From Loxodes magnus (Eukaryota; Ciliophora; Karyorelictea; Loxodida; Loxodidae), in the NCBI GenBank assembly GCA_946699065.1, contig CAMPDV010000096.1, forward strand, positions 186,001-250,000: DNA of 64,000 nt. Reading direction: 5' to 3'. The notes below the pieces were generated by a model. The model was not told the origin of the DNA and did no database searches. It saw only the letters and a list, made by a program, of their open reading frames with translations. Position numbers and translations under genes: made by a program. Of this stretch, positions 1 through 64,000 are shown piece after piece. The stretch's first letter is position 1, and each line of letters begins with the position of its first letter.

Positions 1-3000
1 AGGAAAATTTCGTTTTTAAACCAATGACACTAGCGATCGGTGACGGTGCTAATGATGTTTCAATGATTCAAGAAGCACATGTTGGTGTGGGAATATCAGG
101 TAAAGAAGGAAGATAAGCTGTAAATTCTAGTGACTATGCTATTGCCAGATTCAAATTCCTTAATACTTTACTTCTAATCCATGGAATGAGAAATTATAGA
201 AGATGCTCATATATAATTCTTTATTCCTTTTACAAGAACTTCACTCTAATTTTCCCCATGTTTTACTTTTCCTTTTATTCAGCTTTTAGTGGAACAGCTC
301 TATACGATTCATGACTTATCATGAGTTATAATGTAGCATTTACTGCTGTACCTATTATAATTCTAGCAGTTTTTGATTACGAAATAAATGTCAAATCATG
401 CCTGCAATTTCCAGAGCTCTTTTGATAAGGAATCCACTAAATAAGGTTTAATTTTAAGGTTTTTATATTTTGGATGTTTAATGCAATTCTGCACAGCGCA
501 ATTATTTTCTGGTTTTTAATCTAAGGAATAGAAGACCAAGCGGAAATTGATTTTTATCTACAAGGAACATCAGCATTTTTAATGGTTTTGATAAACGTAA
601 CTCTCATCATATGCATAGAAAATAAAAATTGAACCTTCATATTTGGCTTTGCAGTAGTATTATCAATTATTTGCTTTTTTCCTTATATTTTCTTCATGAT
701 GAAAGTTAGTTTTCCAACAGAATCTTTAATTGGAATCGCTTCGCATTTGTTTGATAACGCTCTCATATTTGTGACCTGAATTTTAGTGCCTCTAATTCCG
801 TTTTTAATTCATTTTGGATACAATGCTTACATCTAAATGTTTCATCCTTAAATTTTCCATATTGTCAGAGAAATAGATAAGACTAACAAATATTCGGATA
901 ACTATTAAGCAGCTATGGTACCATTTAGACTGGATAAGTTCAGAAATAACCTAAACTCCATTTATATCTGCTCGAAAGACTAAGAATCCTCGGATATGGA
1001 TGAAATGAAGTTTAAAACTTACTAATTGGCATTCAAAAATAAAACCACTGAAATTTTATATCAGATGTAATACTCCTACGTTCATATTAAATACACTAGA
1101 ATAATCCTCTTAATGCTTACTATCTTAATCACAGTCTGAATTTTATTGGAAGCATTTGTTAATAAGAGAACTTTTGAAGTCATTCTTACTAGAATTTTAC
1201 TGTGGATCGCATTGTTTATAACGTTCGTGTTTAGCTTCCATAAATACTTTATCAACAATTACTAGATTTGTATATTAGTGATAATAACTTGTGCCTTATT
1301 AGTCAAAATCATAATAGAAATTATAAACAAATCTGATGGAGCTATGGCTACTGCTATAACACCACTTATTACTTTTGTCATATTCAACGTTAGCGCATTT
1401 TACATCACTATCTTAAACTTCCTTCACTTAATTGGTTGGTTTGCTAGATTCTATTTCCATCATATTGCAGAAAAAGATAATTCTACTTTCGAACTTTGCG
1501 TCATGCTAACAGCCACAACTATCCTGCATATTGGTTTGAACACTTTGTGCGCTTATCTAGCGTTTAATATAGAGAAGGCGGAAAGAAAGAAATTTGTACT
1601 GAATAGAAAACTTGAAAATAGGATAAGCAAGAATAGGGAAATTATGAGCATTCTACTTCCTGAATTTGTTAAGGAAAAGTTTTTAAGAGGAGAGTTTTAG
1701 TATGTCAAAAAGCAAAACAATGTTACAGTTCTATTCTGCTACATTCTATACTTTGACGAAATATGTGATCTGTATCTAGCATAAGAACTGGTTTCTCTTC
1801 TAGACAACGTCTTCATTAAATTCGATTAATGCTGCGATTAGTGTGGAGTTACTAAAATAGAAACTGTAGGAAATTGCTATATGGCTTGTGCTGGTTTAGA
1901 GGATAGTGAGGAAAAAATGCACCCAGATCTTGCTAAAAGGAATCACGCAGAAAGATGTGTAGATTTAGCTTTCAGCATGATAAGAAAAATACAGAATTAA
2001 TAGCTAAAAAATGGAGTCAGTCTCTGTATTAAAATTGGAATAAATAGTGGGAATGTTATTGCAGGTGTTGTAGGAAATGAAAAACCGTAATTTGCATTAG
2101 TAGGAAACACAGTAAATACTTCCAGTAGGATGTGCAGCACAGTAAAATAACCAATGAAAATTAGAATATCAAACAGCACTTACGAATACGTCAAAAAGAT
2201 GAATAATGTAGATTTTAAATAAGAGACAGTTAATGCGAAAGGGTTAGGAGATGTTATTACCTACTTAATTACGGAAAAGGAGCATGTTCCTGAATTTAAA
2301 ATGGAATAGCAGAATAATGACAAAAGTATTAACGTTTATTAAAATTCAATGAACTAAGATGTTTCAACTTTAATAACTGAACCAATACCCACTCCAAGAA
2401 ATGATTCTGAGTCTACTTCCTTATTGTAAAAGACATCATCAACTGCAAAACCAAATTTTTCTGCAATTAAAAATAGGAAAAAATCTATAGTTGCCTAGTT
2501 AGAAGTAATAGAGTAGATAAACCATGCATCAAATGAAAATAAAAAGAAGTTCTTATATGGATGTGGAATTACTCTATGGGATGAAGTTTTGGAATTTTTA
2601 AATTAAATTCAAACGAAAAGATTAAAAAGAATAAAAATAGGATTCGCTGTATTTATAATCACCTTCACGATTATAGCAATAATTTATACTCTGCGTAAGG
2701 CTATTATTGACAAAGTAAGATTTCTATTATAGGGTTCATGAATTACAATTGCTTTCAGATATGCATTTTCTTTTATAGCTTCATTATCTCTTTTCAGCTT
2801 TCTTGAGAAAATAGTTCTTAAAACTTCAATTTTCAAAGCGATTTTTATCATTTTACTTCTTGCTCTTGTATCTCTGGACAACACAAGATTTAGTAAAGGA
2901 GATAACTTCATTTATTTCGAAGTTCAAGAAGTAATGCTTGTAATTTTGATCCTCACAAATGCAAGTTCAATCTTAAGTACAGTAATCTTTATGATAGACA

Positions 3001-3875
3001 CTTTAGCTATTATATTCTGAATTATTCACGTCACTACAGACTATAAATGGGATATTATCGGAGTAGAAAGTACCTTTTTTTTACTGACTTTCATTATTCT
3101 AAGTACAATCAATGTAGTTGTAATGGAAAGACATGAGTTCAAAGAGCATACACTTTAGAATAAAGCTAACCAAGAAATTTAAAATTCTGAAAAATTGCTT
3201 TCAAAACTAATGCCTTTCACTGCTTTGGAAAATCTAAAGAAAGGAAATGCAGCTTCAGATAATATTAGTGGTGTCCCTCTCTTATATGCTGATATAGCAG
3301 GTTTTACAGATTTTAGCTCTAAGAGGGAGCCATAAGAAGTAGTTAAAATGTTGTCAAAATTCTTCAGCACCTTTGATGAATTATGTGAACTGCATAAGGT
3401 CTTTAAAGTTTATACAATTGGAGATTGCTACGTTGTTATGGGATTTAGAGATGATGGAAAAACTGAAAGAAATACACTGCAAGAACTAATTAATACTATT
3501 GAGTTTGGACTTTCAATGGCTAAAAATATAACTCAGCTCAATTAATAAGAGAACATGGGAATAGGCATGAGAATAGGAATACATGTAGGAGATATTGTAA
3601 CTGGAGTTACAGGAACTAATATAGTAAGATTCGATACATATGGCTCTGATGTTCTTATAGCTAATAAAATGGAAAGCGAAGGTGTCAAAGGTTATGTCAA
3701 TCTTTCTAATAAAGCCAAGAACATATTAGAAGAGAACAGAGTTCAAAAATACGTCTTTAAATTTAATAAAAAATTAGAAATTAAGTTAAGAACTAAAGAT
3801 TTGTCCACTGATTCTTACCTAGTAGCTCATATAGAAGACGAAAAGACACTCTTAGATGCTAAACCTGCTTAATGA
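1..3875 (+). CDS. P4-type ATPase / guanylyl cyclase fusion, 3' part
   Basis: Bifunctional membrane protein predicted to combine a lipid-flippase-like ATPase with a cyclase making cGMP; this architecture is known from ciliates and apicomplexans. The 5' end lies outside the window; the frame is open from base 3 and gives about 1290 residues. Seen: the P-type hinge [20 protein letters not shown] (residues about 14-33), the C-terminal ATPase helices, a six-helix cassette (about 357-533), cyclase domain one (about 546-756), a second cassette (about 863-1043) and cyclase domain two (about 1056-1279). Domain one lacks the metal aspartate (FCYIL) but has KIET, with the guanine-type Glu, and FALVGNTVN. 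Domain two has the metal Asp in [11 protein letters not shown] and the second in YTIGDCY. This is the swapped C2-C1 order of ciliate cyclases. TGA reads as Trp (FVTWILVPL). The end is TAA TGA. No intron seen. Confidence 0.93.
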
Positions 3876-4483
3876 TTTTTTAACTGAAAATTATTCTTAT
3901 ATAACCAATTAATTTTATCAATAAGCACATTCCCTTTATTATTAAGTATCCTTCAATATGATCAAGCTAACTATTCATATTTTCTTATCAAATTATATTA
4001 AATGCAGAACTTTAGTATCCTTAAAGATAACTTCAACCAAATGTGTACTTTTAAAACTAATTAGCTAGTGACAAGGATTAAATCTCTTTAAAGTACTTAT
4101 CAAAATTAAAGGTAATTATAATATACAATTATATCTATTTTATTCAGTTAAATAAAACAAATTAAGTCAATAGAATCTATTCTGTTCAGCTATTACACAA
4201 ACGCTTTCGTTCTTATTATCACTCTAAGTTAGCATATTAATGATAAATAAATATTTAAGAAATTAAAAATTTCTAAGAAGAAATCAAGGATTTAAAGTAA
4301 ACTCTAAATCAACATTTAAAGGAATCCTAACTCATTTTACTATTCTTAAGATGATGGCTTAGTTATAAAATAATTACTTTAATGTATAAGTTATTTTCAC
4401 TTTGTGTAAAAGGAATATCAGAATATAATGTAGTACAATGGAGTTTAGTTATTGAATTCAAATGGTTAAAAACAGAGGGAAAA
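3876..4483. other. AT-rich intergenic DNA
   Basis: Lies between two convergent genes. I see no conserved ORF, RNA gene or repeat here. Confidence 0.6.
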
Positions 4484-5075
4484 TCAATTATAAGTAACTG
4501 ACCAGTTGGAAAATTTTTTTTCTATTTTAGCTTGTCTATCTCTTTCAAATTATTACTCAAATTTCTTGTACAACATAAGAGCAGATCGCGCGTCTTCTAC
4601 CTGCATTGATATAATACTGAGCAGTGCGCGCCTCCTTAGATTTCTAAATTAAACTCCTCCTTTATGACTTGTGCTAATGATGGATTTCTCTAAATACCTT
4701 TGTGCTGCATGTAAAGCCTCTGACTATCTCTAATTAATGAAAAGGGATGTTGCAATTGCAAAGCTTTCAGATCATTTTTAATACTAAAGCCTACAAGAAT
4801 TTTGTTTTTGGTAATATTCCTTACTCGTCATTGAGCTTGTTGGAATGTTATCGCATTTTTCAAGTGGCTTGCCTTAATTCCGCTAACCTTAGATCTATAA
4901 TCTAAAACTTTAGAGTCAGGAATAACATATTCATCCATCAAAACTTCTCCTTCATAATTAACAATCGAAACTCTAATCAAGGTTAGAAATAAAAAAATTA
5001 CCTTGCTAGGGCATTTCGTTTGAACAAGGTTCTAATCATTTCGCAATCAATCGCAACTATTTGTTTGTTCTGCAT
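4484..5075 (-). CDS. REX4/ISG20-like 3'-5' exonuclease
   Basis: DEDDh-family 3'-5' exonuclease of about 181 residues, of the type that trims rRNA and other RNAs, probably in the nucleus or nucleolus. Seen: Exo I motif AIDCEMI (residues 8-14), Exo II region ILVGFSIKNDLKALQLQHP with the conserved Asp followed by IRDSQRL, and Exo III GAHCSVEDARSALMLYKKFE. Two GT-AG introns interrupt it: 29 nt at 4973-5001 and only 17 nt at 4601-4617 (gtattatatcaatgcag). Removing both restores an uninterrupted family match; without the second removal the Exo III motif is out of frame. Only the C-terminal tail is short compared with animal REX4. The start ATG directly precedes the family core, so there is no N-terminal extension. 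The stop is TGA at 4484-4486. Confidence 0.9.
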
Positions 5076-6485
5076 TTTTAAATTAATTATTATTTCTATG
5101 AAATTATAGTTTACTTTTTAATTTACTCTACAATGCTCATACCTATACCTTCATTTAACTATATACTCTCTATAATCACTAGAACCACTCAAACAGTCTT
5201 AGACTAATCTTCATACAACCTTACCTTAATATATTCACTTGATGCTTCTATAGGATAAAAATTAGATAGACAAGTGCTTTCTTAGTATTGACTTAGAAGT
5301 AATAAAATTAGTAAAAGTTTCTTGTAGCTTTCTTATTAAATCTGCTAATAGCAAATACAATGTACACGTATTTAAATTACTTATGATCAAGTTTTCTTTT
5401 CTAAGTCCTTTTTATGAGAATGTTCTGCTAGTAATAATAAAGTAGTTCTTTGATATTTAGTTAAAAGCATAAATTCAAATTATGACATTGCTTATACAGA
5501 GAGCAAATTATGCTCATTTAAGGGTGAGATACATCTTTTCTTATCATGGTGGCAAATTGATAAGATTAAGGTTCTAAAATGTATAGAGAGCAAGATTAAA
5601 TTCTAATTAATAAAAATAAAAGATACATGCAGCTTATTTCGTTTACTATACATCCTTCAGAATTTATAAAGCTATATTACATACTTTATAACTAGAAGTG
5701 ATATTACTGAATAAAGCTACTTACCCATAAAATAGTTTAAATGACTGAATATTTCAGATAGCATACAATCAATAATGTTTCTTATTATTCTGTACTCTAA
5801 TGAAACTTTTTTGATTATAGCTCCTATAACTTTAGAGTAGATATTAATATCAATTATTTAACTAAAAATTAATTTAAAATGAGTTATAAATATCTTGAGT
5901 AGTTAATTTATCATTTAATACTTCTTATCATATTCTACATCTATTTATCTAATATCCTATTATTTTCCCCTATGTCTCGTTTTAGCTTCGTTATCACTCT
6001 TGGAATAATTTTAAGATGCTAAGATTTTTTAAGTTTTCTATCCTTAATAATTTAAGCTAATATATAATAGGTATAGATATCTTAGTTTCATTATTGCTAG
6101 ATAACCATATCAATAGATCAGCTCTTAAATAGAGAGCTTAGTTTTATATTAGATAGAGATTTTTAAATCTTTTATGCCTGCTAATTTAATTATGCTATTT
6201 AAATATAATTACTAAGTATCTAGATTTTTAGCTAATAAATAGCATAAGGATTTACCTTTCTTAGCATATCTTATAATCAGACACTTACTTAGAATATTTT
6301 AGCTGAAGATACTATAAAGCAAGTTAGAAATATGCTTATAATATCTCACATAATTAGATAATCTTAAATATATTTAGACTATTAACTGGATAAGTAAATA
6401 AAGGTACTTGGATAGTAAAGAGATAGAGAAATGAAGTAGTTACTTATGATAATATTAGCTTAAATGTTATTTAATTGTTAGTTTA
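5076..6485. other. AT-rich intergenic DNA
   Basis: No recognisable gene. The part nearest 6485 may hold the undefined 3' end (terminal exon or UTR) of the next minus-strand gene. Confidence 0.5.
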
Positions 6486-8851: not shown

Positions 8852-9202
<351 letters not shown>

Positions 9203-33355: not shown

Positions 33356-34594
33356 TCAAAATACATTTGGAAGCATTCTATGAGGAACTTTTTTGCAATA
33401 TTTATTCCAATATTCTCCGTATTTCTCCTCACACTTTTCCTCATCTCTGTAAATCCTATGCATAAGTAATAATAAGATATAAGTAGGATATATCATTACT
33501 TAAAAGCCTGAGGTTACTCCTACAATGCTCCAAAAGAAAGATAACAAAACTTCAAATGTGTAATTCATTTTTCTTCCAATTCCCCAAAAGCCGCTTATTA
33601 AAAGTTTACCTTCAACTTATCTTTCATCTTTTTGATATTTAGCTTTAATATATTTTGCTGGCTTGCCCCAAATTCAGCATTATCCATTGCTTCTTTGAAA
33701 CAATTGCTTTTAATAGTCGACTCAGTAATTCAAAACTAGAGAAATCACTCCAAGGATGAAACAAACTAAGGCTAGCCAAGAACTTATTTAAGGTGGGTAG
33801 TTAGCCATAGCAAATAACGTAAGAGTGTAAAGTGAAGGAACCATTACTAGACATCCCCAACAGATATAATGACCAGCTCTATCCAGCATAATATCTAAGG
33901 TATAAAAATACCCAATTTCCCAATAAAAAAACTTAGCAATATAAGCGGATTAAAGTAGAAGACTTGCTAAAATACCCCAATTAAGCCCGTAGATTCTGTA
34001 GCTAGCTATTGAAAAGGCCAAAATTAAAATTTGTCAACTAATCATTCCCCATCTGCAGTTAGTAAACTGCTTAATATCCACATCCCCAAAGAATTTAGGA
34101 TGGAACTCCATTCCTCTATAGTACTAATAAAAGCAATTGGAATCAGGATGCTCTTTCATGGATTCTAAATTCTTATTTTTAATCTCTTGCCTTCCCTTAA
34201 TGAAAAGATAAATACAAAACACTATAGAAGTAATAGAGTTAAGGAATGTAATGAAAATATGACTTTTGAACAAAAACATATCAATCTAGTAATAATAGCA
34301 GAGAACGAGGAAAAAACATACGCTTAAGAACCAAAAAATTATCCCATTATTAGCATAAAGAGGAACTGTATTGTCCTAATTTTTAGGACCTTGTACTTTG
34401 TCTCTGGAAAAATAAATCGAAGAATAGCCATAAACTCCAAAAACCAAAAGCATTAGCAAAACATCTCCTACGCCTGAATAGGTTTGCAGATCCTTTCTAC
34501 TTGCGTACCATAATAGTACAAAATTAAAAATGATTACAAAGATAGAAAGAAGGAGTGGACCAAGTATGTATCGAATAGTCCTATCTCTAGACAT
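33356..34594 (-). CDS. Sterol reductase of the ERG24/DHCR7/lamin-B-receptor family
   Basis: Polytopic ER enzyme of 412 residues that reduces a sterol ring double bond (C14 or C7) with NADPH. Seen: several membrane helices, the substrate/cofactor loop FHPKFFGDVDIKQFTNCRWG, the family signature DIMLDRAGHYICWGCLVMVP, and the C-terminal cofactor-binding block LISGFWGIGRKMNYTFEVL followed by HRIYRDEEKCEEKYGEYWNK and a YCKKVPHRMLPNVF end. The order and spacing match the family throughout, and length is normal for DHCR7/ERG24. I cannot decide between C14- and C7-reductase. The stop is TGA straight after the usual C-terminus. No intron. It is divergent with the FkbM gene, start codons 330 bases apart. 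Confidence 0.93.
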
Positions 34595-34923: not shown

Positions 34924-36168
34924 ATGAAATCATTAATCAATCTGAAAGTATTGCTGTTCTTCTTTGTTCTTGTAGCTCTTCTTTAATTTTACTTATTATA
35001 CAAGTTCATTATTCCTACTAAGGTTACGAAGAAAGACACTACTTTTATTTAAAGGTAAAAAAACGCTTTTCCCAGTTTCTAGACAAAAGAAAATTTTTGG
35101 TAAACGTAAAATTACTCTGAATGAGTGAATTATACAATTCCTCTTGAGCTTAATCCTTTGAAAGTAATGTGTATTGCTACAGTTGATAGGGATTGTAGAA
35201 AAAGAGCTAGGAAAGATTCTGAGTTTATTTATGAAACAGAAGTTTGGTCCGTTTACTCTTGAGCTATAAACAGAGGAGCAAAATATGTAATTGATATAGG
35301 TGCGAATTTTGGAGTTCATAGTGTTAAATTGGCCGGCTTACTTTCTTAGTATTAGGATTCACATCTTTATAGTTTCGAAGCGAACTGGAGAACTTTTGAG
35401 TAACTTAAGTATAACATAATTTAGAACGACTTAGAAAACAAAGTTTCATTATATAATCATGCACTATTTAACGAATCAAGATATCTTTGGTTCGAAAATA
35501 GGTTTAAAGCAGGATAATCAAGGATTGTTTATAATGAATCTTAGCTAGAACTACTCGATAAATAGAATGTAGTTTAGGTTAAAACTAAGACAATCGATTC
35601 AATCATTCCTAAAGATTAAAAAATTCAATTATTGAAGGTTGATGTTGAAGGAGCAGATTGCCATACAATCCTTGGGTCTTTACAGACAATAGAAAATAAT
35701 ATAGAAGATATTCTAATTATAACAGAGTATAATAAATATATTTTACTAGGTGATGACTAAAATATCAAATGAGCTTGCAAGAGAATGTACGATATTTTGC
35801 TTAAATAATTTCAAATGGAGGTAATTTCATTTGATTTTGAATCGTTTGAAAAATCGGGAGGATTAAAGCAAAGTGTGAAAAAAAACTGAAATAAAGGAGA
35901 CTGACTCTATCCGCTTAATGTTGCTACAATTGAGGAATTAGCATTTTATTAATAGAGGAATTACTTTAATATTCTGATAGCAAGCAGACAAGCTTTAGAA
36001 AAATATGATATTTACCTCTTTGGATGAACTAGTTATAAACATGCTTCTTATTTTAAATATAATAAACTTCATATAAAACAGTTTTCTAATGCTACAAGTC
36101 CTTCTATTTAAAAAGTAAAATAAAACGTTAATTTGATAATAAACATAGTAAAGGAGCATTCAGTATGA
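34924..36168 (+). CDS. Membrane-anchored FkbM-family methyltransferase
   Basis: SAM-dependent O-methyltransferase of 414 residues. A signal anchor (residues 8-29, VLLFFFVLVALLQFYLLYKF) precedes the FkbM domain. SAM motif I is KYVIDIGANFGVHSVKLAGL, followed by the acidic strand end SHLYSFEANWRTF. Later come the FkbM signature TIDSIIPKD, then QLLKVDVEGADCHTILGS, and an acidic DILIITEYN. FkbM enzymes methylate hydroxyls on sugars or lipids; with this anchor the protein probably works in the ER/Golgi lumen on glycans or glycolipids, which is inference. The region after the catalytic domain (WNKGDWLYPLNVATIEELAF) resembles the tail of eukaryotic FkbM proteins. TGA is read as Trp at several positions, and the stop is TGA at 36166-36168. 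Confidence 0.9.
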
Positions 36169-37641: not shown

Positions 37642-39277
37642 GTATAATGAGACTTTTTAATCATTTATTTGTTTTCATTATTTTTGTCTAATATACAATT
37701 ATTAACTGAAAAGAAAGTTAATAAAAAATATAAATGAGAAGCTGCAGAAGATTAACTAGAGCCATTAATTATGTTTATCATTGATAATTAGTCAAATTAG
37801 CAAAAATAATTTCTTTTATGACAGCAAAAAGAAACTAATTAAGCATCAAATAATCAAAAGATTTATAGCTTTATTAAATTTACTAATATCTATAATATAT
37901 TAAATCAAAATAATGCCAATTTTCATTTAAGCAAAATGACTTAAGATACCATTCAAATTTATTCACTTTGATACTTTTTCTATTCTTTAAATTTATTCCA
38001 TTTAAGCAATAAGCCAACTATTAATAATTTCCATACCAAGGGAAATTTCTTAATTTTAAAGGCTTACATAATTTATTAATAGATGGTATTTATTTAAAAA
38101 TTTCTGCTTTCAAATGATGAAAATGATAATGTAGAGAATTAATAGATATAGAGCAAAATGAATGTTAAAGTTAATTATAAAATAAGAGTTAATATAAGCA
38201 TATTTTAGTAGCTAAATGATGTTAGTTATTTTGAACTCTAACTCTATTTATTATTATCTTCATATGTTTTTATCTGTGAAGAGTACTTAGAAGCTAGATA
38301 TATTCTACATTGAATGCTAAAGTCTTTTCTTTCCAATATTTTGATTAAAAGTCATTATACTTATTTCAGATTTAAGTTAATCAATTGCTAATCTATTTTC
38401 TATTCTTATCCTTTAATTCAAAAAGAGTATAACTAGAGGAGTTTAAAATGAAAGGGTATCATATTTCAGTATAAATTTAGCAGGTTGTGATGAATGAAAA
38501 TATTTGAATGCAAAAGAAGTAGAAAAGTAATAATTTGAATTACCTAATAATTTGAAAACGAAGAGCTTTTAATTCTACTTTGATATTTATTAATCTAATA
38601 TCTAAGAAAACTAAATACAAGTATAATGATATAACATTAATATCGAATATACTACCTAAACACTATTAATCTATAGGATATTTCTATTATAGTTTTCTAA
38701 TACTCTTGTCTTTATGGTAATTAACAGTTTACTCAAATGTGTACTAGAAAAAAATAATATACAGTTAAATGAAAGGCATGAAATATAATAACAAATTACA
38801 AGATTAAAGGGCAAAATAAAATAAGTAAATATTTAGCTTTATATTATAGGCAAAAGATAAATATGCAAGGAATCTATATTTCAGGTTTCATTTATCAATT
38901 CATTTTTTGCTTAAAAGTATCACACAAACATTTAACTATATAATTAGTCTGATAAATCTTGCTCTTAATTAATTTCTAATTTTTAGTGACTCGAACATTT
39001 AACTTCATACCTATGTGGTGAAGAATCACATATCAATGACAATTATTAAGCATTTAACTATGGTAGTTATATCTTATATTAACAGGGGTAATAATGATAT
39101 AGGATATATGGTAACAATATTGGAATAAGAATATATAAGTGATTAACTCTCAAGAGCTAACTCAAAATATAATCTACATGATTAAACAAAATATATGCTT
39201 AATCGTATAAATAACTTCAAAAATTTTACTCTCACTATTACAATAAAATAAATAGAGTTAAAATAATCCAACAAAAA
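37642..39277. other. Open frame upstream of the large K/Q/S-rich gene
   Basis: The frame of the next gene is open back to an ATG at 38162, preceded by an in-frame TGA. The 38.16-39.28 kb translation includes hydrophobic stretches and a plausible segment near 39.0 kb (LEHLTSYLCGEESHINDN), but TGA codons occur about as often as chance would give. The N-terminus of the gene may therefore start anywhere in this interval, or include introns. Confidence 0.4.
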
Positions 39278-42200
39278 ATGTTGCTTGAAAGAAAAAAAAA
39301 GAGAGACAATTCTTATAAGTAGATATGTAGAGAAGAGATAGTAATTAATGAGGAAGCAGATAATTGTAATTAAGAAATAAAGCAGATGCTAGGATTTTTC
39401 TATATATTTATATGTAATCTACCTAAAATAGTTTTGAAAGCAATGTTTATTTACAATAATAAAATACCCTAGTCAGTATATGAAATACCTTTCTATGATA
39501 TTGCATATTAAATGTTATTTAATTAATATATCATATAATATTACCTATACTCACCTTTAATATTACTAATAATTCTGAAATATGAAATAAGGATTGAGTA
39601 CATGATTGATGTAATAGATGGTGCATAGTATGTATGGGAAAGAATGGGAATCTAGAGGATTAATCCATCAATTAATCGTAGAGGAAATAAAATAGAATTA
39701 AATAAACAGTATGTTTAAATACTCTAAATCAGGTATTTTAATAAAGAAACATTTTATTTAATTTATAATTACGTAATGCGCAGGTAAAGTTCTCTTTTAA
39801 ACAAAGCTTTGGAAGGCCAAGTTGTAAGTTTTAAGCTTTATTAAGCTTAATAAGAGTAAGAGTAGGATATTCTGATTGAAAAGGTAATGAAAAGTAAAAA
39901 GAAAAAGCCTAACAGTGGCGAAGCTGCTGGAGAAAATAATGAAGATAAGGAGGAGTATGATATAAATGATAACAGCAATCTCTTCTTTAAAGCTAGTAAG
40001 TAAGTAGATACTAAAGAAGAAAACTTTGAAAAGTTAAAATAGCTTAATTTAAAAATAGATTAGCAGCATTTATAGAAAAAAGAATTTTCAAAACAAAATC
40101 CAAGTAAAATGTTAGGAAGACTAAGCTACGATTCCGATCCTTTTTCTCTCTAAAGTCCTTTAACAGCTGGGCATAATCCTTTAAATAAAAAATTTGGAGC
40201 AGGCAAGAAAATTAAAAATCCCATTTCTTATAATTATGACAAATCAATTTCAGAGGAATCTGAAGATTTTGAAAATGATTCAGAATTAGACCAATAAGAA
40301 AAATAAAGGAACTACAAACTAAAGTAATTTAAAACACAAGAAATCTCAGAACTATCTGAACCTCAAAAGGATCACCTTTAAAAAGTTAATTCTTTCAAAA
40401 GCTTTAAATCTCATTCTAAATTGGAAAATATAGCCCCTAGCTCTTAAAACTTATTAAATACCATCACAACTTCTGACTCTCCCTTGTTATCCTTATCATC
40501 CAATGCAGAAACAATATAGAAAATAGAGAAGAAACAAAACTTTCCTTCTCCTTTAAAGTTAAACAAAATAGCAAGAAAAGATAATAACTAAGACTAGAAA
40601 AGTGTAATTGCAACTTAACTAGGTAAAGATGAAGCTACGAATGATAAAAATATTCTACAAACTCCTCAAAAGGGTTTAAGCTCATTAACAGATAAATAGG
40701 AAAATTAAGTTTATGATAGTCCAATGGCTTAATAAAAATCAATAGAAATGAAAGGTTTAGAATATTAAATTAAAATTTAAACAGTCATGGATGATTAAAT
40801 TAGCGAAGAAAAGCCCTTATCTAAAAGTAATAGCTAAAGTTTGTAATAGATAACCGATAATGCTATTACAAAGAGTAAAAAGTTAAAGACTAATTTAATG
40901 GATTAGGTAACATAAAAAAAGTTAGAATTGCACAGAAGCTAAAAATCCTTAAAGTAAAGGTAGAATGCATAAGGTTAGAGGCCTATCCAATTTTTAAATT
41001 CATCTGATTTTGTTAAACTAAAAAAATAGGAGACACCTAGCTTGTAAGTTGATTAACCAGAAAGATAAAAAACACCATAAGCATCTGATAGATAAAAATC
41101 ACCTAAAGTAACTGAAAATGAAAAAACACCTTAAAAGATAGAAAAAGTAAAATAGCATAAATCGTTAGAAGTATAAAAAAGGCCTTAAAAGATTGAAAAA
41201 GAAAAAGAAGTAGAGAGTGGTGAAATTTACTAATTTAGCTTCCAAACTCAAATGATTTCCGCTTAATCAAGACTGAGGGAAAGAATAAAGCCACTATCAG
41301 TAAATACAAAACCATAGCCAACAATTAATTTACCAAGTATTAGAAATGAAAAAGTACAATTAATTGAAATGGAAAATATCTCTTAAAATAAACTTAAATT
41401 ATCACCAATTCTAACAGGTTCTAATTTAGTAAGCACAAACAGTCAAAAAATAATCGATATACAGTAAGGAGAGAATGGTGTCAAATACCAGATAAAAGAA
41501 ATTATTACAGATTAAAACTAAATTGACGAATAAAACAATTAAGAAGTAAAAAAGCAAAAAAAGCTGATAAGTAAAGATGTAAATTGATTAAATTATAATA
41601 ATAAAGAACTTGACAAAAAGTTGAGCATTATATATGAAGAAACTTATTAAACTCAAGAAAAAATAAAGCCTTAAACTAAGTGAAACTATTAAAACGAGGC
41701 AGAAACTCCACTAACTCCTCTCAGAATTAATACTAAAAAAAAAAAAGAATAAAAGGGTGATAATAAATAAAAATAGCTAGAGCAAATACTTGATTAGAAG
41801 CTAAATGAAGTTTAAGATTAGCCTACACCTTATGGAATTAATTTACCTACAATTTCAAAAAGGAGAAGTGATTATTTGTGTGGAGACCCTACAACTCCTA
41901 TGCCATAAATCAAAAAATAGAATATTCAAGTAAGAGCATCACTTGAAGCAGGTCAAATTAAGCCTGGCATTACAAGATTTTAAAGTAATAATAAAATTTC
42001 TAAAGAAGAAGAATGTGTCTCTGCTTGTGTTTTACCCAATAAAAAAAAGTAAGGTTAAGTTTAAGGAAAAAATTAAAATACTACAAATGAATATCTCACT
42101 TTTGCTGAAAAAATATTACCTCAAAAAAAGAAAGGTTGCTTTTATTCTCACGAGCTTTACTCAGATAAGCATAAAATTAGCTTAGTTCAGCTACATAAAA

Positions 42201-45941: not shown

Positions 45942-47764
45942 ATGGGTTAAAAATTTACTAACTGTTGCAAAACCATAAACGTTGATGTTATAGAAAAAGA
46001 AGGATGCAAAGGAGCTCAAAATATTTATGAAATTCAAGAGAATAAATGCAAATAAAAAAAATCTAAAATAGACCAAAATTCATAAGATTATGACTAAAAG
46101 AAAACGAATGTTAAAATTGTCTCTAATGAAAATGAAAATAATAATGAAGATAGTCAAATACTAAAATCAACTTCAACTAGAAAAAATTCAAGGACTAAAA
46201 ATCAAAATGAATCAAAAGAAATCAAAAAAATAAAATCTAAATCTTCAAAGAAGAAAGAAATAGAAGGAAAAGTTGGCTTTTCTTAAAGTAATTACCTAGC
46301 TCTCTAAGAATAGGAATCGGCTGTTAACTTGTCGCTAACCAATTCGGAAAATTAGTAATTAAGTCAACGTTTAGGATAAAAAAATCTGGTAAAATAGGTT
46401 AGATTAGTTAGGTAAGTTGAAGGATCTATTTAAGATAGTTATGAAATGATAAAAAAACTAGGCGAAGGTGCTTTTGGATAAGTAATGCTTGCAAAAAGTA
46501 AAGAGAATGGTGAGATGAGAGCGATTAAATCGGTAAACAAAGGAAATTCTACCTAATAAAAAAGACTGGAAATGGAGATTGAAATTCTTAAAAAAATAGT
46601 AATTTATTCATTCAGGATCATCCTAATGTAGTAAAACTATATGAAGTATTTGAGGATTCTAAAAAAATTCATCTTGTATAAGAACTTGTAACTGGAGGGG
46701 AATTATTTGACCGAATTATATAAATGCAATCCTTTAATGAAGAAGATGCGAAGCAAATAATGAAGTAAATATTGCAAGCTGTTTAGTACTGTCATAGCTT
46801 AAATATAGTTCATAGAGATCTTAAACCTGAAAATATTCTTTTATAAGCACCTCATCCAAACAACACAATTAAACTAATTGATTTCGGAACTTCGACTCTC
46901 TTTTAATTAGGACATAAGTTAAAAGAAGTTTAGGGAACAAGTTATTATATTGCTCCAGAAGTTATAAGAGGTGATTATGATCATAAATGTGACATTTGGA
47001 GTTGTGGGGTAATTTTATTTATACTTCTATGTGGAGAACCTCCCTTTAATGGAGAAGATGACGATGAAATAATGAAAAGTGTATCTATAGGGGAGTTTGA
47101 ATTTTCGCAAAAGGAATGATAGGGTGTTTCTAAAGAATCTAAAAGTCTAATTAATAAGATGCTAACTTAGGTTCCAAGTAAAAGACCTAGCGCTGCAAAG
47201 TTACTTTCACATAAATGGTTCAAAAAGTCAGCCAGTTAAAATATTCCTTTGAATTCATTGAAACATCTAAGAGAATTTCATTCAACAAAAAATTTGCAAT
47301 TTGCAATAATGAATTTTATTGCATCTTAGTTAACTGGTAGCTAAGAAGTAGAGTAGTTATAAAAAGAATTTAATTAAATCGATGAAAACGGCGATGGAAA
47401 GCTATCAAAACAAGAATTATTTAAGGTGTTAAAGACAACTAAAGGAGAATTTATTGCTAAAGCTGAAGTTGAGGAAATTTTTAAAAAGGTGGATACTGAT
47501 TAATCAGGCTTTATAGATTGGCATGAGTTTGTAGTTGCCTCAATGGACAAACGAATGCTTTTATCGTAAGAAAGACTAAGAAAAGCTTTTGATTTGTTTG
47601 ATACAGATAAGTCAGGCTCAATAAGTAAAGAAGAGTTATTACACTTCTTTTAAGGATAATTAGATGAAAATACTGTTACTAATTTGATTAAAGAAGCGGA
47701 TAAAGACGGAGATGGTGAAATTGATATAAACGAATTTATGACTCTGCTGAATGCATTAAAATGA
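45942..47764 (+). CDS. Calcium-dependent protein kinase (CDPK)
   Basis: Ser/Thr kinase of 601 residues activated by calcium, typical of ciliates, apicomplexans and plants. Seen: N-terminal [11 protein letters not shown] (Gly2 for myristoylation, Cys pair for palmitoylation, so membrane-attached) and a K/N/S-rich linker. The kinase domain shows LGEGAFGQVMLA, AIKSV with the ATP lysine, [20 protein letters not shown] and [11 protein letters not shown] junction helix follows ([20 protein letters not shown]), then four complete EF hands: [49 protein letters not shown] 17-nt intron, gtaatttattcattcag (46599-46615), lies between LKKI and [10 protein letters not shown]; unspliced it would shift the frame. 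TGA is Trp in FSQKEWQGV and stop at the end. Confidence 0.96.
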
Positions 47765-54945: not shown

Positions 54946-55006
54946 TCAAATTTATATATATATATAGTAAACTAAAAGTAATTAAAGTTTAGCATTCCCT
55001 GGATTT

Positions 55007-55777: not shown

Positions 55778-56119
55778 TTTTTTTTCTTCAAATTTATCTT
55801 TAGGCTTTTCTCTTATATCTAAACTCTAAAGCCTATAGGTTTTTAAATTTACTCTAGGAGTAAAAAACGGGAAATTTCTATAGATATTTTAAATTCTTTA
55901 TTTTATCAATATCGGAAAATAATCTGCATCAAGTCTACTGCTTTAAAAAAATAAAATAAAAGAATAAGTAAATGTTAATGTGATGTTTAGTTATAATATA
56001 ATAACAACAGTAAATTTTATAATTGGTATTATTTCTAAAGTAAATAAACTTTATCTATTTATTATTTTGAAGTCATATTCTTCAATAAATGCATATATTA
56101 TAATAATAATAATATTAAT

Positions 56120-57060: not shown

Positions 57061-57069
57061 TAAGTATTA

Positions 57070-57440: not shown

Positions 57441-57475
57441 AAAATGTAAATATTATTAAAAAAAACTTTAATTAT

Positions 57476-57508
57476 AGAGCGCGTAGCACCTCAATGGTGC
57501 ACAGCTCT
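57476..57508. repeat. Nested-hairpin repeat, copy 1
   Basis: Outer stem AGAGC/GCTCT and inner stem GCACC/GGTGC are both perfect, with a 5-base spacer and a 5-base loop (TCAAT). It is preceded by TTAT and followed by TTTAT. Related copies are at 58170 and 62515. It lies about 30 bases upstream (minus strand) of the endonuclease fragment. Confidence 0.75.
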
Positions 57509-57879
57509 TTATAATAATGAGTAAATAGTTAAAAACTTAATTATTTATTAATAATTAAAGTAATATTGCAATATGCTAATTTTAATGTATTTTAACTTAT
57601 TCTACCCTTGATTCGTTGCCCATAAATATAAAGCACCTTTTATTCATTTTAAGTTTAGATGTGAAGTAAGTTTGGAGCTAATCTTATAGAGTTTCTTTAG
57701 CATCATTATGATAAGTCAAGTATAGTATTCTTATAATAGCTTCCGATCAATTTTAATTTCTACTGAGTTACATATGTCAGTCATGGCTTTAGGTTTTTTC
57801 TAACTTCTTAACAGATTTAGCACATATATGAAATCAGGAAAATTCTAAGCCCTGGATTTCAGTACATCTAGTAAGTTTC

Positions 57880-58020
57880 TTGAAACAAAAAAGAGAACCC
57901 TCAAATAAGTAAGGCTTACCACGCACAAAGGGTACGTCTTAATTTATCCGTGGTGGTATCTATTGAGAGCTACTTGCAATATAGTCTGCACTGTACCGGA
58001 TTACATATTCGGCTGACTAG
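57880..58020. repeat. GC-richer repeat block, copy 1
   Basis: A block visibly less AT-rich than its surroundings. Its 3' half (about 57940-58010, containing GTGGTATCTA and CACTGTACCGGATTACATAT) aligns with 58470-58545. There is no convincing protein frame and no tRNA shape. It is probably untranslated sequence belonging to the retroelement family; the role is unknown. Confidence 0.5.
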
Positions 58021-58169
58021 AGCACATCATCCATTTAAAAAATAAATATTTATAATAATTTAATAGCGTTATATCTACCTTTATTCGGTTAATCACTGGT
58101 AATCACGAATAGTTTAAGTTTTGCTAATAATAAACAAGTAAATAATAAATAATAAATAAAGATGATTAT

Positions 58170-58202
58170 AGAGCGCGTAGTACCTCGTTGGCACACAGCT
58201 CT
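58170..58202. repeat. Nested-hairpin repeat, copy 2
   Basis: Same outer stem AGAGC/GCTCT and 33-base length as copy 1. The inner arm is GTACC against GGCAC, giving one mismatch, with loop TCGTT. TTAT precedes it and TTTC follows. Confidence 0.7.
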
Positions 58203-58379
58203 TTCAGTATTATATTTAATATTAAAAAAAGTTTTCTCATACCTCTTGATTTCGTTCTATTCGTTTAATGAGTTATTTCATCTTCTCCAATGAGGAATCT
58301 TCTTATTAAAAATTATTATTAAATCTAGAATCAAATGCTTCAGTCTTCTTGAATAAGGTTAAAATAAGAATTAGTAATT

Positions 58380-58560
58380 AGTCATTATATGGCCCGTCAG
58401 TTAAACTTTCATATTGCTAGAGAGACCTCGGGGAAGTTAGGTTTGTCTCTTCTGAGCTTGCTCACCCTTTCCCGTAGTGGCATCTAGTGCAAAATTACTC
58501 TCAATGTAGTATACACTGCTCCAGATTACCTACTAGTTTTTCTGACGCGACCGACATCTA
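58380..58560. repeat. GC-richer repeat block, copy 2
   Basis: Partner of the block at 57880-58020 (shared GTGG-ATCTA, CACTG, CC-GATTAC in the same order). It also lies a few hundred bases to the right of a nested hairpin (copy 2), the same arrangement as the first pair. Confidence 0.5.
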
Positions 58561-58615
58561 TTTTATATTAATAATAATTTCCGTAGTTTCTTCTTCAGAA
58601 TCTATTTCTTCTTCC

Positions 58616-59317
58616 TCAGGGTATATTCTTCGATTTTATAAATATTTGTTGCAACTTTTCCCTTCTTTACTACTGGAACCTAACTCCAGTTTCAGTCTTT
58701 CTCAAAATTTAGTATAGTACTTCTCTCTTAAGCATTAGCAATAACTTCGTTTAACTGATCTCTATTTTATAGTTTTCTCCTGAATATTTCTCCGTTTTTA
58801 ATGCAGTAAAGTTTGGTTATTTTTTATTAAAATTTCTTATTTTCTAATTTTTTTTAAATAATCTCCAGTTTCTATATATAAGTCTCATCTTACAACAGCA
58901 AAAACATTCTGAATTACAGCTCTTCGAATCGTGTTCTATTTTTCGACTTTTATAAAATTTTTTATTTTTTTGATTAGAAAAAGTTTTAGATTTCTGTTAT
59001 TCTCTAACTATAGGATCATTGTGAAGGAAAATAAATTATTTAGAACTATTCTAATTACTAATTTCTTTTATTTTTTGCTTCATTCTTTTCAATTATAAAT
59101 AAAATAAAGATTTTGAGACCAATGTTTTAATTCCATTTTTAATGATTGGCTTTAATTTTATAATTATTGTATAGTTAAATTAGAGAATCGATTCGTTAAT
59201 TTAAGTCTTAGAATCACCGTTATATCTTTTTATTTTCTGCTTCTAGAAAGTAAATTCAATGAGAGTTTAATTAATCGTTGTCCTGTTAGTTTTAGAAAGT
59301 TATTTCTTAGAAGCCAT
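58616..59317 (-). CDS. ORF1-like protein with decayed zinc knuckle
   Basis: Frame open for 233 residues from ATG 59317 (MASKKQLSKTNRTTINQTLI) to TGA. The tract CFCCCKMRLIYRNW sits where the related copies have C-x2-C-x4-H-x4-C. Here the His has become Leu and the last Cys Trp, so the knuckle should not bind zinc. The basic K/Q/N-rich character matches other ORF1 copies in the nest. It is probably a decaying copy with an accidentally open frame, given that only TGA stops translation. Confidence 0.45.
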
Positions 59318-59414
59318 TTTATAATATAATTGAAATATGATCTATGCATTTAATTTAATTTTTAGTTTTAATCAAAAATTAAAAATTAAATAATATTTGA
59401 AAAAAACTTTGAAA

Positions 59415-60217
59415 ATGGAAATTTAAAACATCGTAAATTTTGCAAAGAAATGCAGGGAAATAAGCAAAAAAGAAAAAGAGAAAAAGTTAATGGAATTTTT
59501 GTCATAATTAAAGGCAAACGATTACACAGAAAACAGGATAACGCTCCAATTAATTTATAAAAACAAATTATTTATTAATAATAAAAAAAATGAAGAAAGT
59601 TTTCATCAAGTAGTATTAGATAATATATAATCTCATATTGAGTACTAAATTTAGAAACGATATACTTAAGTAAGTAACTTGCTTAAAATAAATTTTAGCT
59701 GTAAAAACAGCCATGAAGTTAATTTTAATCCTACTAAATAGAAGAAGTTCCAGTAATTACTGAAGAAATTAAGACTGATATTACGAAAAATCTAGTTAAT
59801 GATTTAATAAAATTTTGAGGAACGGAAATAATTAAAAATTTTGAAAAAACTTTAGAAATTTATTTATAAAAAATATAAATTTAAATAGAAGAAAAATATT
59901 TGGTGACTATGAAATTCTTCCGATATATTGTAAAACTTTGTTTGATTTCAAAAATTTTAAAAGAAAAGAAAATTAGAATTATAAAGAAAATAGCATAAAT
60001 TGAATAAAAACAATAGATAATAAGAAAAATCTGGAAATAAAAGAGATTTTACTCGGATGGATAAGATGAGGAACCATCCATTTTAAAAATAATCGAAGAA
60101 TCCAATTTTGATAAAAAATAGATAGCTGAAACTAATTGAAAACCCATGGAAAGCAAATTTATTCAGATTTTAGTTGATAATTATACTAACAATAATAACG
60201 ATAATCAATTAAAGTGA
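59415..60217 (+). CDS. Hypothetical protein, 257 aa, one 29-nt intron
   Basis: Unrecognised. ATG 59415 starts MEIQNIVNFAKKCREISKKE; exon one is 85 codons. A 29-nt GT-AG intron at 59670-59698 (starts gtaagtaac, ends aattttag) joins KRYTQ to LQKQPWSQFQ, after which the frame runs through IEEVPVITEEIKTDITKNL, KFWGTEIIKNFEKTLEIYLQ and DEEPSILKIIEESNFDKKQI to TGA at 60215-60217. Without splicing the second exon is out of frame. It is strongly helical and charged, with no membrane segment. It lies on the plus strand within a nest of minus-strand LINE pieces, so it could be a host gene flanked by insertions or an accessory gene of an element. Confidence 0.6.
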
Positions 60218-60388
60218 GACCACCTTTATTTAGTTCACCCCTTTTTTAGATTTTATAAATACTAAAATAGAGTATTTTGAAAAAATTCATCATAATATTT
60301 ATTTGTCTTATGCATTTTGATAAAATATCGATTATTACTCTTTTCTTGTATTTTTATTTAAGGTATTTAATTGAAATTCAATTAATTA

Positions 60389-61154
60389 TCAAATTTTTTT
60401 AATATGAGTTTTAGTCTTTGAATCTCCTAGTACTTCGTCTTCTATACTTATCTTAAGTAAATAAAAGTTTCCCTCTAGAGTAATATACAGCTTAATTAAT
60501 TTATTCCATTTTTTCTATAGTTTCTTATTTTCATCTTTTTGCTTATTTCAAAATTTTCGCCTTTCTCTTCGAAGTGTCCATTCGTTTTACAAAATTAATA
60601 TTTAATAATTCTCTTTTCTCTGTTTTTTTTTTGCTGGCTGCACTGTTGGTTCTACATTCATAGAATTATTATGAGTAAGGTTATTCAAAACCAGGTTTTC
60701 AATAATCTCAGCAAATTAGTTTAATTTTTTCTGTTTGAAGAATTCGCAAATCGAGCTCTTAGAACTAAGAATGGACACAACATAACGAAATTTATAAATG
60801 TGACATTGCCTTTATTTGGTTTGTCATATATTGGTTTACAAAAAGTCTCAATTTTTATAACTCTTTGAAATCGACCATTTTTTATCAAGGTTCATATTAT
60901 TGAATAACTTAACTATGGTCACCAATCTAGCCTTTCTTTGCCGTTGATATTTTATTCCAATCTCAATCCTTTGCTTCTTCCTTTTTTTTTTGAGAATTTA
61001 TTAATTGTTAGAATAACTAATCTCCACCAGACATTTTTCTCCTGTATAGGTCACCTTCAGACGTACAATAAATATTGGTTAGATTTTGTCAGCATTTTTT
61101 ATTTTCACAACTTTAAATTTTTTTTATCTCCAACAGTTTTATTTTATGTATCAT
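60389..61154 (-). other. Protein-like minus-strand stretch, unassigned
   Basis: Purine-rich on the minus strand with translated pieces such as LTNIYCTSEGDLYRRKMSGG, DWDWNKISTAKKGQIGDHS and NIWQTKQRQCHIYKFRYVV, but they are not all in one frame. A 10-base A run (minus strand) lies between two of them. It may be part of a LINE or a decayed gene; no domain recognised. Confidence 0.3.
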
Positions 61155-61199
61155 AACCTATAGAATCAGCATATAATTGATCTATTTTTTATTAGTTAA

Positions 61200-62060
61200 C
61201 TAATAAATAAAAGATTAAATGCTTGCCACTATTTGAGGTATTTCAACCTCTTTTCCGCCAACTTCTAGATTGCTCTATAGGCTAAATAATAAGCTTAAAT
61301 GTCTCTATAATTCTTCTTCTTGATTGCATACTGTCACTTGGATTTACTTTCGTCTTGATAATGATTGGTATCTTTGATCTTGTATATTTTTCCAAATTTG
61401 TTGCAATATAAACTTTCTCTTTCTCTTTCTCTTTCTCTTTTTGTTTTAGTTGTTTTTGTATCTTCTTTTTATTATCAAACTTATTCTAGTATTTTCAGTA
61501 TTCTTATTTAAAATTTTGAAATTTCTAGCCTCTTTTCCATATATGCGTTCGAGAGTTACAATAATAGCATCTAGCTTTTCGTTTAAGTTGAAATCTTGAT
61601 TTTTTTTCTCTTCGATTATCGTTGGTCATTTCCTTATTCTTGAAGGTCCATTTAACACTTCCCTTTTTTTTTATTTTCTTTTATTTTTTCTATTTTGTTG
61701 ATCAGTTCTTTCTGTTTCTATTGTTAGTATTATGATTAATTGTTCTTGTGAAATATTTCAAAATGCGTTAAGGTCTCTTTCTTAGGTCATAAATCTCGAT
61801 TCTATTTCATCTGCAATTTCAAGTTTTTCATCAGTCTCTTATTATCTTTCTTCAGTTTTTCGACCTCTTTCTGGAGGTCCAGCATCACTCTAATCAGCTA
61901 ATCATAGCTTATTTATTACTCTGTGAAGAGATTCGAGTCTTCCGAATTCATAATACCTTTAGCATATTTCCTAGGCTATTCTTAAGAAGTGGAGATTCGA
62001 TTTAATGGATGACCTTTTTGGTTCTCTTTTCCTTGTTCTAGTCTCTCTAGGATGTTGTTA
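61200..62060 (-). mobile_element. ORF1-like relic, third copy
   Basis: Minus strand: MLDLQKEVEKLKKDNKRLMK followed by a tract equivalent to SRLMSQERDLNAFW of the second copy, then a knuckle-like CYYCNSRTHIWKRG at about 61.55 kb whose last Cys is replaced. A (CTTTCT)n run at about 61412-61440 encodes alternating Lys/Glu. More than one frame is needed, so the copy is broken. The spacing to the hairpin at 62515 resembles that between the second ORF1 copy and hairpin copy 1. Confidence 0.5.
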
Positions 62061-62514
62061 ACTCCAGCTTTATTGGAGCCGCGAAAAATCCTGAAATATT
62101 TATTATTTATCTAATTGTTAATTTTTAATTTTTTAATCATATTTAAATTGATTGCTCAATATCCATTGCAACAAGTATAGCTTTACTTGTAATTCATTTG
62201 TAGTTTACTTAATTGAAACCCCGAATATATTAAATATTCTTCTGCTCTTTTAATCTATTAATTAAATAGATATGTGAAAGATTTTAAGTTCAAAACTGTA
62301 TTCAGTATTTTATTATCATTTTACAGTTAGTTAATATTTAAATCTAGACTACTTATTTGCAGAATTAATTGCTGAACTGCATCCTATAGTTTTATTTTCT
62401 GGCTATAGCGAATAAATCTCAATCAAGGTATCTTAATATTAGTTAGAAGATTGGTTTTGGGTGAATTGTTTCTAGATACCATTTTATTTTATATAAATAA
62501 ATAAATTTTATTAT

Positions 62515-62548
62515 AGAGCGTGTAACACTCTCGTTGGTGCGCAGCTCT
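62515..62548. repeat. Nested-hairpin repeat, copy 3
   Basis: Outer stem AGAGC/GCTCT conserved; the inner part has diverged (CAC against GTG remains). It is one base longer than the other copies. The TTAT and TTTA flanks are kept. Confidence 0.65.
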
Positions 62549-62560
62549 TTAAAAAAAAAT

Positions 62561-62636
62561 GTTTCATACTGACAAGAATGTTTGTTACTGATAAAATTAT
62601 CAGATACTGATAAAAATGTTCAATACTGATATAATT
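62561..62636. repeat. Four 19-bp tandem repeats
   Basis: Four consecutive 19-base units share TACTGA followed by TA and A/T-rich ends: 62561-62579, 62580-62598, 62599-62617, 62618-62636. They lie between hairpin copy 3 and the GC-rich duplicated block. Confidence 0.75.
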
Positions 62637-62652
62637 TTAGAATACTCGTAAT

Positions 62653-62935
62653 CTTTAATACTTACTGGAGGTCCAAGGACATGGCAGGATTGTATCTCAT
62701 TGCATCACCAAAGCAGAGGACGACATGTGTCAATTATGGGTACTTAAATTCCCCACCTCTGATGAAGCTCGCAATATTAACTTAAACGAAGCCCCAAGCC
62801 AGTGTCGAAGGTATAAGAATCTTATGTCTCGAGGTCAAACCAAAGAAGAGGAAGACATAAAGTCGATTATGGGTACTTAACTTCCCCAACCTCTGATGAA
62901 GATGACCTTGTTGTTCACCTTCGAACAACTATGGC
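62653..62935. repeat. GC-rich block with internal duplication
   Basis: The least AT-rich stretch of the window. A core of about 60 bases (from about 62707: ACCAAAG, ATTATGGGTACTTAA, TTCCCC, ACCTCTGATGAAG) is repeated about 132 bases later (from about 62839) with scattered changes. One plus frame reads ITKAEDDMCQLWVLKFPTSD in the first unit, but the second unit is not in that frame. It could be a foreign coding fragment, an RNA, or retroelement untranslated sequence; I cannot choose between these. Confidence 0.55.
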
Positions 62936-63170
62936 GGTTTTAAAAAATATATATAATAAAAAATAATAATTCTATAGCTTAAATAAGTTTAGTTCTTAAA
63001 CTATCTTTATGTTTATAAACTGAGATTCAAATTAAGTTAGCTATGATGCTTATTCATTTAAAATAATAATAATAAATTTAGGCATATTTTATATATTTTT
63101 GATTCAACAAAACTAAGTTTAAATTTTACTTTTTCAATAAAGATTGTTTACATGCTATAAAATAGAAGAT

Positions 63171-64000
63171 ATGAAAATTAGGACTTTGCATTTTTTCATC
63201 TGCTTGATTAGTTGTGTTATTATATATAATTTCTTTTTTATTTCTTTTTTCACTTCTGATCTTTCAAAAAATGACAAGTTTCTTTTGCATAATTACACTT
63301 ACAAAGCTTTAACTGACCTAGAATTTAGAAAATAACAAGTTTCCTAATTTAGTGATTATTTACAACCTTAGAATTCTAAAAAACACTTCCTTTAGAATAT
63401 CAAACTTAGCAAGTCATACTGCGATTCTGTTTATTCTTACAGATCTAATAAAACCTACTCAATCCAGGAATTTAACCTGCCTAACTAGATAGAAAGCGTT
63501 ATCTTACATAACTCAAATAAAGTTGTCAATAAAGTGGTTAAAAGCTAATTTAATGATGACTTCACGATATGGAATTCTTCAAAAGAAGCTTATCTAAAAC
63601 CTAATATTCTAATTTTTTGAACCATCTAATAATCTTAAAAAGTTTAGTGAAAATAAGGAATTGAATTTGCTTGTAAAGGATAAAGATTTAACATGCTTAA
63701 GTCTAAATTTAGTCTTGATTCTAAAGATCTGATTTATAAGGCTGTTAGTATTTATTAATCTCAATTATCTAGAAATAGCCAATCTCACTGTTTCAATCAT
63801 TCAATTTTTTATCCTCAAACTTATGATATAACCAAACTAAAATAATGCAAATCCTTCCTTAAACTACTATAGAGCACTCAATTTAATAACAGTATTTAAT
63901 GACTTGTAAAAAGCGTGATTCTACATTAAGGAAAAGGAGTAGATATTTTAGATGAAGCGAAGAGAAAAGAATGATTGTATAAATATGTTTATTATAACTG
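63171..64000 (+). CDS. TTL-like protein, second copy, 5' part
   Basis: Same gene type as 50640-52226, cut by the window end after about 276 codons. The signal-anchor segment (MKIRTLHFFICLISCVIIYN) has diverged. From KNDKFLLHNYTYKALTDLEF onward, long blocks are identical or nearly so at the DNA level, interrupted by short strongly diverged patches (for example around 63690-63770). This patchy pattern points to gene conversion after an older duplication. TATAAAATAG and GAAGAT precede the ATG, as in the first copy. The TTL catalytic motifs lie beyond the window. Confidence 0.8.

Follow-up and report, generated by a model that had tools for sequence, protein, structure and literature searches.

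Karyorelict ciliates, Loxodes among them, use NCBI translation table 27, as stated in PMC11441545, which also reports a 706 Mbp somatic (macronuclear, MAC) assembly of Loxodes magnus, and passages of PMC4967479 describe an ambiguous code together with a 3'-end model of termination. Here we compare with these systems the use of TAA, TAG and TGA in a 64,000-nucleotide stretch of DNA (the window), C96:186001-250000 of an assembly of 705,730,643 bases in 7843 contigs. The window is almost certainly translated under NCBI code 27, with glutamine (Gln) for UAA and UAG, which tRNAs carrying the anticodons UUA and CUA would read, and tryptophan (Trp) or stop for UGA. It is probably somatic DNA of Loxodes magnus or of a very close relative, an assignment based on this code and on an assembly size equal to the 706 Mbp published. 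The karyorelict code was already the original prediction, and it stands on homology at TAA and TGA, on TGA after all 24 gene ends read, on tRNAs for UAA and UAG and on the published table 27. The code is already known for the genus, because table 27 is in print for Loxodes. Seah et al. 2022 reportedly set out both the ambiguous code and the 3'-end model.

Seven stretches (five from the window, the thioredoxin reductase (TrxR) locus L090 and the eRF1 locus L050) were compared with solved structures, with X placed at TAA, TAG and TGA, and the partner residue in the best match was counted; in this count the cyclase of the window is represented by its catalytic domain B and the FkbM methyltransferase lies outside it. 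TAA stands opposite Gln in 19 of the 60 cells (P 2e-12) and TGA opposite Trp in 7 of 14 (P 2e-9), the remaining seven TGA cells including one selenocysteine (Sec) site of TrxR and one stop, that of ATG8. For the window alone, the corresponding values are 7/26 for TAA and Gln (P 6e-5) and 4/9 for TGA and Trp (P 1e-5), where one of the nine cells is the ATG8 stop itself. Since Gln and Trp partners exceed chance in these structure alignments, homology shows TAA to be a Gln codon and TGA a Trp codon. The reading of internal TGA as Trp, which had been proposed from the peptides FVT-TGA-ILV of the cyclase fusion and SQKE-TGA-TAG-GV of the calcium-dependent protein kinase (CDPK), is borne out by the four window cells with Trp. 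Trp also occupies 8 of 14 cells in the TGA columns of eight kinases, and when four TrxR sequences are set against the solved enzyme 1zdl, their 14 TGA cells fall on Trp nine times, on the Sec site four times and on Phe once. The Gln of the GGQ motif of eRF1 is a TAA codon in both eRF1 copies.

The alignments single out Gln less clearly for TAG. Its partner is Gln in 3 of 23 cells over the seven stretches (P 0.07) and in 0 of 12 within the window, so that TAG = Gln does not follow from the window alone, and the TAG columns of the eight kinases hold Lys 27 times, Glu 21, Gly 12 and Gln 9 among 140 cells. With Glu 30, Lys 26 and Gln 19 of 170 cells in the TAA columns of the same kinases, the kinase counts back TGA as Trp and single out Gln for neither TAA nor TAG. 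Both TAA and TAG had been expected at non-conserved or Gln positions; a preference for Gln positions appears in the window for TAA but not for TAG. The points in favour of TAG as Gln are a tRNA with anticodon CUA and the exchange of TAG, TAA, CAA and CAG among TrxR genes: in the four TrxR paralogues, TAG is paired with TAA in 14 cells and with CAA or CAG in 9, but also with Lys in 11 and with Ser in 9. A meaning of TAG different from that of TAA, as in some other ciliates, would suit the 3/23 and 9/140 cells with Gln, and it is very unlikely in view of these exchanges, of a tRNA(CUA) that resembles the tRNA(UUA) and of the published code 27. We retain Gln for TAG as a meaning that sequence comparison here weakly supports.

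The original prediction pointed to eRF1 and suppressor tRNA genes in the same assembly, and two altered eRF1 genes, tRNA(UUA) and tRNA(CUA) were indeed found. The two eRF1 genes are nearly identical and lie on the same contig (C196, loci L050 and L051); they carry RAQNIKS where chain 4d5n has TASNIKS, and FLCENTF where 4d5n has YLCDNKF. A pattern for UAA- and UAG-reading tRNAs gave 316 matches in the genome vs. 67 for the reversed control. Among the 100 matches listed, the loci chosen for the two main sequences were confirmed by ARAGORN as tRNA(UUA) in 5/5 cases and as tRNA(CUA) in 3/3, while two loci with other sequences gave neither tRNA(TTA) nor tRNA(CTA) (0/2).

The tRNA-Trp(CCA) genes were counted as exact 17-base anticodon arms, whole genes being confirmed by ARAGORN at the fetched loci only. 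There are 52 arms with A27.C43 and 72 with U27.C43, i.e., 124 with a 27:43 mismatch atop the anticodon stem, vs. 3 with a paired U27-A43, and the reversed patterns of all three arm types gave no match. The arms form arrays, with 48 on contig C67 (C67:482318-491183) and a run of 66 on contig C148 (C148:155459-209565), and the three paired arms lie on contig C110. A 5-bp anticodon stem, considered for the C148 copies that the A27 pattern had missed, was rejected, as their sequence is U27.C43 and hence also mismatched. No tRNA-Trp(UCA) was seen among the 100 of 166 pattern matches listed, the pattern being strict enough that absence is not established, and three genes for tRNA-Sec(UCA) score above the Rfam cut-off and were confirmed by ARAGORN.

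With these components, the decoding of the three codons could proceed as follows. UAA and UAG would be read by the tRNAs with anticodons UUA and CUA, whose genes are present and which are presumably charged with Gln. Internal UGA would most likely be read as Trp by the abundant tRNA-Trp(CCA) with its mismatched top pair of the anticodon stem, by analogy with published work on Blastocrithidia and Condylostoma, and at the gene end eRF1 would win through the 3'-end and poly(A) context, as in the published model. In TrxR, a SECIS-like (selenocysteine insertion sequence) hairpin would add Sec as a third reading of UGA.

At all 24 gene ends read, of which 4 belong to the window and 20 to other parts of the genome, the next codon is TGA; TAA or TAG takes that place in 0/24. 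What gives this count weight is the placement of the ends relative to known families. For eight, an alignment or profile end fixes the position (ATG8, ERG4/24, two actins matched to 410/410 and four TrxR, of which L090 is aligned to the chain end and the other three are anchored by the same end), and a further eight lie at what are presumably the family ends (four histone H3, two glutathione reductases, lipoamide dehydrogenase and one further actin-like gene). Two aspects of the sample speak against leaning on the count too heavily: only these 16 of the 24 ends are backed by alignment, profile or family end, the other 8 being loose (CDPK, cyclase, two eRF1, PNDR84 and three H3 variants), and the ends were chosen by reading each frame as far as a TGA, which biases the count in favour of TGA. 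The histone stretches L101 and L102 (no stop within 111 bases), L089 (nearly identical to L088) and, with ends not placed, L091-L093, the pelota gene L049 and the kinase loci are excluded from it. In the window, the expectation of TGA at every plausible C-terminus holds for ATG8, ERG4/24, CDPK and the cyclase, the last without an anchor; it does not extend to FkbM or the REX4-like gene, whose ends are not placed.

These ends bear directly on the Condylostoma code (NCBI 28), under which each of TAA, TAG and TGA serves as a sense and as a stop codon, and which agrees with the finding of all three as sense here. C-termini directly at TAA or TAG had been named as the sign that would favour code 28, and they occur in none of the 24 ends, self-chosen as these are and with the H3 variant L098 left aside; this code accordingly has very little chance of applying. 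At L098 (C34:504645-504755), a TAA lies four residues ahead of the TGA, where the paralogue L099 has TGA, and since the tail of this H3 variant is not conserved the TAA does not decide on stop use.

The last 20 or fewer codons before the stops of the 24 genes (421 codons) contain 4 TAA, 2 TAG and 4 TGA, all four TGA being TrxR Sec codons. The number of Trp-type UGA in this region is thus 0, vs. about 2 expected from a rate of 7 in 1567 codons, which agrees with, without proving, the depletion of coding UGA before the stop that is published in PMC11441545.

A code of the Blastocrithidia type, with UAA and UAG as Glu and UGA as Trp, could draw on the 8/60 TAA cells opposite Glu, slightly over background (P 0.04), and on Glu being the commonest residue at the TAA columns of the eight kinases (30/170 vs. 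19 for Gln). It is highly improbable given the 19/60 TAA cells opposite Gln in solved homologues, the TAA codon for the Gln of the eRF1 GGQ motif in both copies and stops that are TGA, not TAA. For the named stretches, the alternative of decayed pseudogenes, in which these codons would be plain stops of the standard code, might be suggested by an in-frame TAA, TAG or TGA in each of seven domain stretches but can practically be dismissed: TAA and TGA sit at particular residues, the eRF1, TrxR, actin and histone genes look alike in this respect, and such codons occur in 135 of the 136 kinase domains scored (of 5592 candidates, genome-wide).

Under code 27, the TrxR genes present UGA in all its proposed roles. 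Of the 13 places in the genome with Pyr_redox_dim, 12 were taken as loci, and TrxR accounts for 5 of the 12 (L086-L090 on contigs C1, C42, C202, C1558 and C332; L088 and L089 nearly identical, hence four distinct). All five loci end in GC-TGA-G-TGA, the Sec and stop TGA being six bases apart, the C-terminal GCUG feature of selenoprotein thioredoxin reductases is present in 5/5, and all five have TGA at both sites that match YGW and HNW of 1zdl (MAFFT alignment of the four distinct loci). L090 has an extra TGA at KWG and another where 1zdl has Phe and the paralogues have TGG. UGA would thus appear to be Trp, Sec and stop inside one TrxR open frame.

The TrxR stop is followed by a hairpin in which GUGA is invariant and which folds more stably than its shuffled versions, with z values of −4.3, −5.4, −1.9 and −2.7, the third being weak (8/200 shuffles as good), while control flanks near the stops of two eRF1 genes and one glutathione reductase give −0.4, 0.3 and 0.3. 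Rfam returned no match for the hairpins at E up to 5, with the library's content of SECIS families unchecked. If the hairpin is a working SECIS, a 3' untranslated region (3'UTR) of about 100 nt is needed, compared to the median of 41 nt (mean 53 nt) published in PMC11441545. In that case some 100 nt or more would separate the TrxR stop UGA from the poly(A) tail, a distance at which UGA should be read as Trp, and the Sec UGA would stand two codons ahead of the stop.

Another in-frame TGA follows the stop at a distance of exactly three codons in each of the four distinct TrxR genes and in the two eRF1 genes; it is seen in 0 of the other 18 genes read (one of which has a TGA at +3 in another frame). 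Since the four TrxR genes are related and the two eRF1 genes nearly identical, this amounts to two families and not six events. A general back-up UGA past the stop was rejected: within 12 codons, 8/24 genes have one in frame vs. 7/24 and 5/24 in the other frames, so there is no general enrichment and only the +3 spacing of TrxR and eRF1 stands out. A speculative reading, to which we give a minor chance, is that proximity to poly(A) is not the whole rule for UGA and that the +3 UGA may act as a local termination signal or as a back-up at leaky stops, in eRF1 possibly as a feedback valve on the level of release factor. It is the gene ends of TrxR and eRF1 that deserve attention at the bench. Single genes in which UGA would have to serve as Trp, Sec and stop offer a compact natural test of context-dependent decoding, and the TrxR genes would separate a pure rule of distance to poly(A) from local signals around the stop.

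The genes recognised in the window are collected in Table 1. Of the six that the original prediction named as having in-frame TAA or TAG, five are recognised by Pfam when TAA and TAG are translated as Gln and TGA as Trp (the fusion of a P4-ATPase with a cyclase, ATG8, the ERG4/ERG24 sterol reductase, the FkbM methyltransferase and the CDPK), but the REX4-like exonuclease stays below the cut-off for PF00929 and is not secured. In frame, the seven domain stretches (1567 codons) contain 36 TAA, 20 TAG and 8 TGA, the CDPK stop included, vs. 21 CAA, 5 CAG and 17 TGG.

Table 1. Features of the window, with positions counted from its first nucleotide.
Feature	Position	Strand	Basis
P4-ATPase (flippase), C-terminal part, of the flippase-cyclase fusion	18..680	+	PF16212 E 4e-60; alignments to 6k7g, 8ox4
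Flippase part, TGA at Trp sites	312-314, 630-632	+	Alignments to 6k7g, 8ox4
Flippase part, TAA at Gln site	114-116	+	Alignments to 6k7g, 8ox4
Flippase part, further TGA, opposite Lys	423-425	+	Alignments to 6k7g, 8ox4
In-frame TGA read as Trp in FVTWILVPL (cyclase fusion)	777-779	+	Reading frame; no homologue aligned at site
Guanylate/adenylate cyclase catalytic domain A	1701..2273	+	PF00211 E 9e-42
Cyclase catalytic domain B	3261..3734	+	PF00211 E 2e-42; alignment
TGA, likely stop of fusion gene	3873..3875	+	End without homologue anchor
REX4-like RNase T exonuclease stretch, weak	4618..4983	-	PF00929 22.5 bits, cut-off 24
ATG8 gene; TGA (8852-8854) right behind C-terminal Gly	8852..9202	-	PF02991 matched to position 104/104
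ERG4/ERG24 sterol reductase (aligned part)	33356..34402	-	PF01222 matched to 432/432; alignment to last residue of 4quv
ERG4/ERG24 codons: TGA stop; TGA at Trp site; TAA at Gln site	33356-33358; 34034-34036; 33710-33712	-	
ERG4/ERG24, TGA opposite Gly and Ile	33722-33724 (Gly), 33674-33676 (Ile)	-	Alignment
FkbM methyltransferase domain; 3 TAA and 6 TAG in frame	35293..35736	+	PF05050 E 6e-10
CDPK (kinase + EF hands); TGA stop 47762-47764	46610..47764	+	PF00069 and EF-hand models
CDPK TGA at Trp site, peptide SQKE-TGA-TAG-GV	47117-47119	+	Trp in 5/5 homologue chains listed

Among the 30 stretches of the window selected for submission to Pfam (several overlapping, and not the whole six frames), 21 gave no match, and Rfam reported nothing above its cut-offs within the window. 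The longest stop-to-stop frame has 144 codons under the standard code vs. 801 with TGA as the sole stop; this TGA-free frame (39182-41587, + strand) is without a Pfam match and overlaps 27-base tandem repeats at 41062-41206. Elsewhere in the genome, dozens of actin places (96 actin-family places are listed, on contigs C266, C437, C524, C711 and others) have the same or nearly the same profile score, which may reflect many gene copies.

Compared with the described systems, the window and its genome agree with NCBI table 27 as given for Parduczia in PMC4967479 and for Loxodes in PMC11441545, with UAA and UAG as sense, UGA as Trp or stop and UGA as the only stop found, and we found no departure from it. 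They share with table 28 of Condylostoma magnum, as described in passages of PMC4967479, that all three codons can be sense and that termination depends on context, but differ in that no UAA or UAG directly follows the 24 placed ends. A 4-bp anticodon stem of tRNA-Trp is mentioned for Loxodes in PMC13092985 and PMC12005148, both citing Swart and colleagues, and the A.C and U.C mismatches at 27:43 in the tRNA-Trp(CCA) described here are of this kind; the arrays on C67 and C148 and the three U-A arms are what differs.

For single genes in which UGA is Trp, Sec and stop, the papers listed on karyorelict selenocysteine, Loxodes tRNA and ciliate selenoproteins (12 of 75 for the last topic) show no report in titles and the openings of abstracts, supplements being outside this scope, and the main text of the Loxodes genome paper (PMC11441545) never mentions tRNA, eRF1, selenocysteine, selenoprotein or thioredoxin. 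Figure legends of PMC4967479 describe a triality of UGA (Trp, stop and Sec) in Condylostoma and Parduczia. Our case would be alike in that UGA has the three meanings in one code and the Sec codon of TrxR comes just before a SECIS, here the SECIS-like hairpin. It differs in that all three would be found within the same TrxR frame in 5/5 loci, whereas these legends are silent on the same-gene case. A parallel for a single gene is SelTryp of Blastocrithidia, a selenoprotein gene in which, according to PMC12153298, UGA stands for Trp as well as Sec, as it would in TrxR here; SelTryp stops at UAA, whereas the TrxR genes described here would stop at UGA as well.

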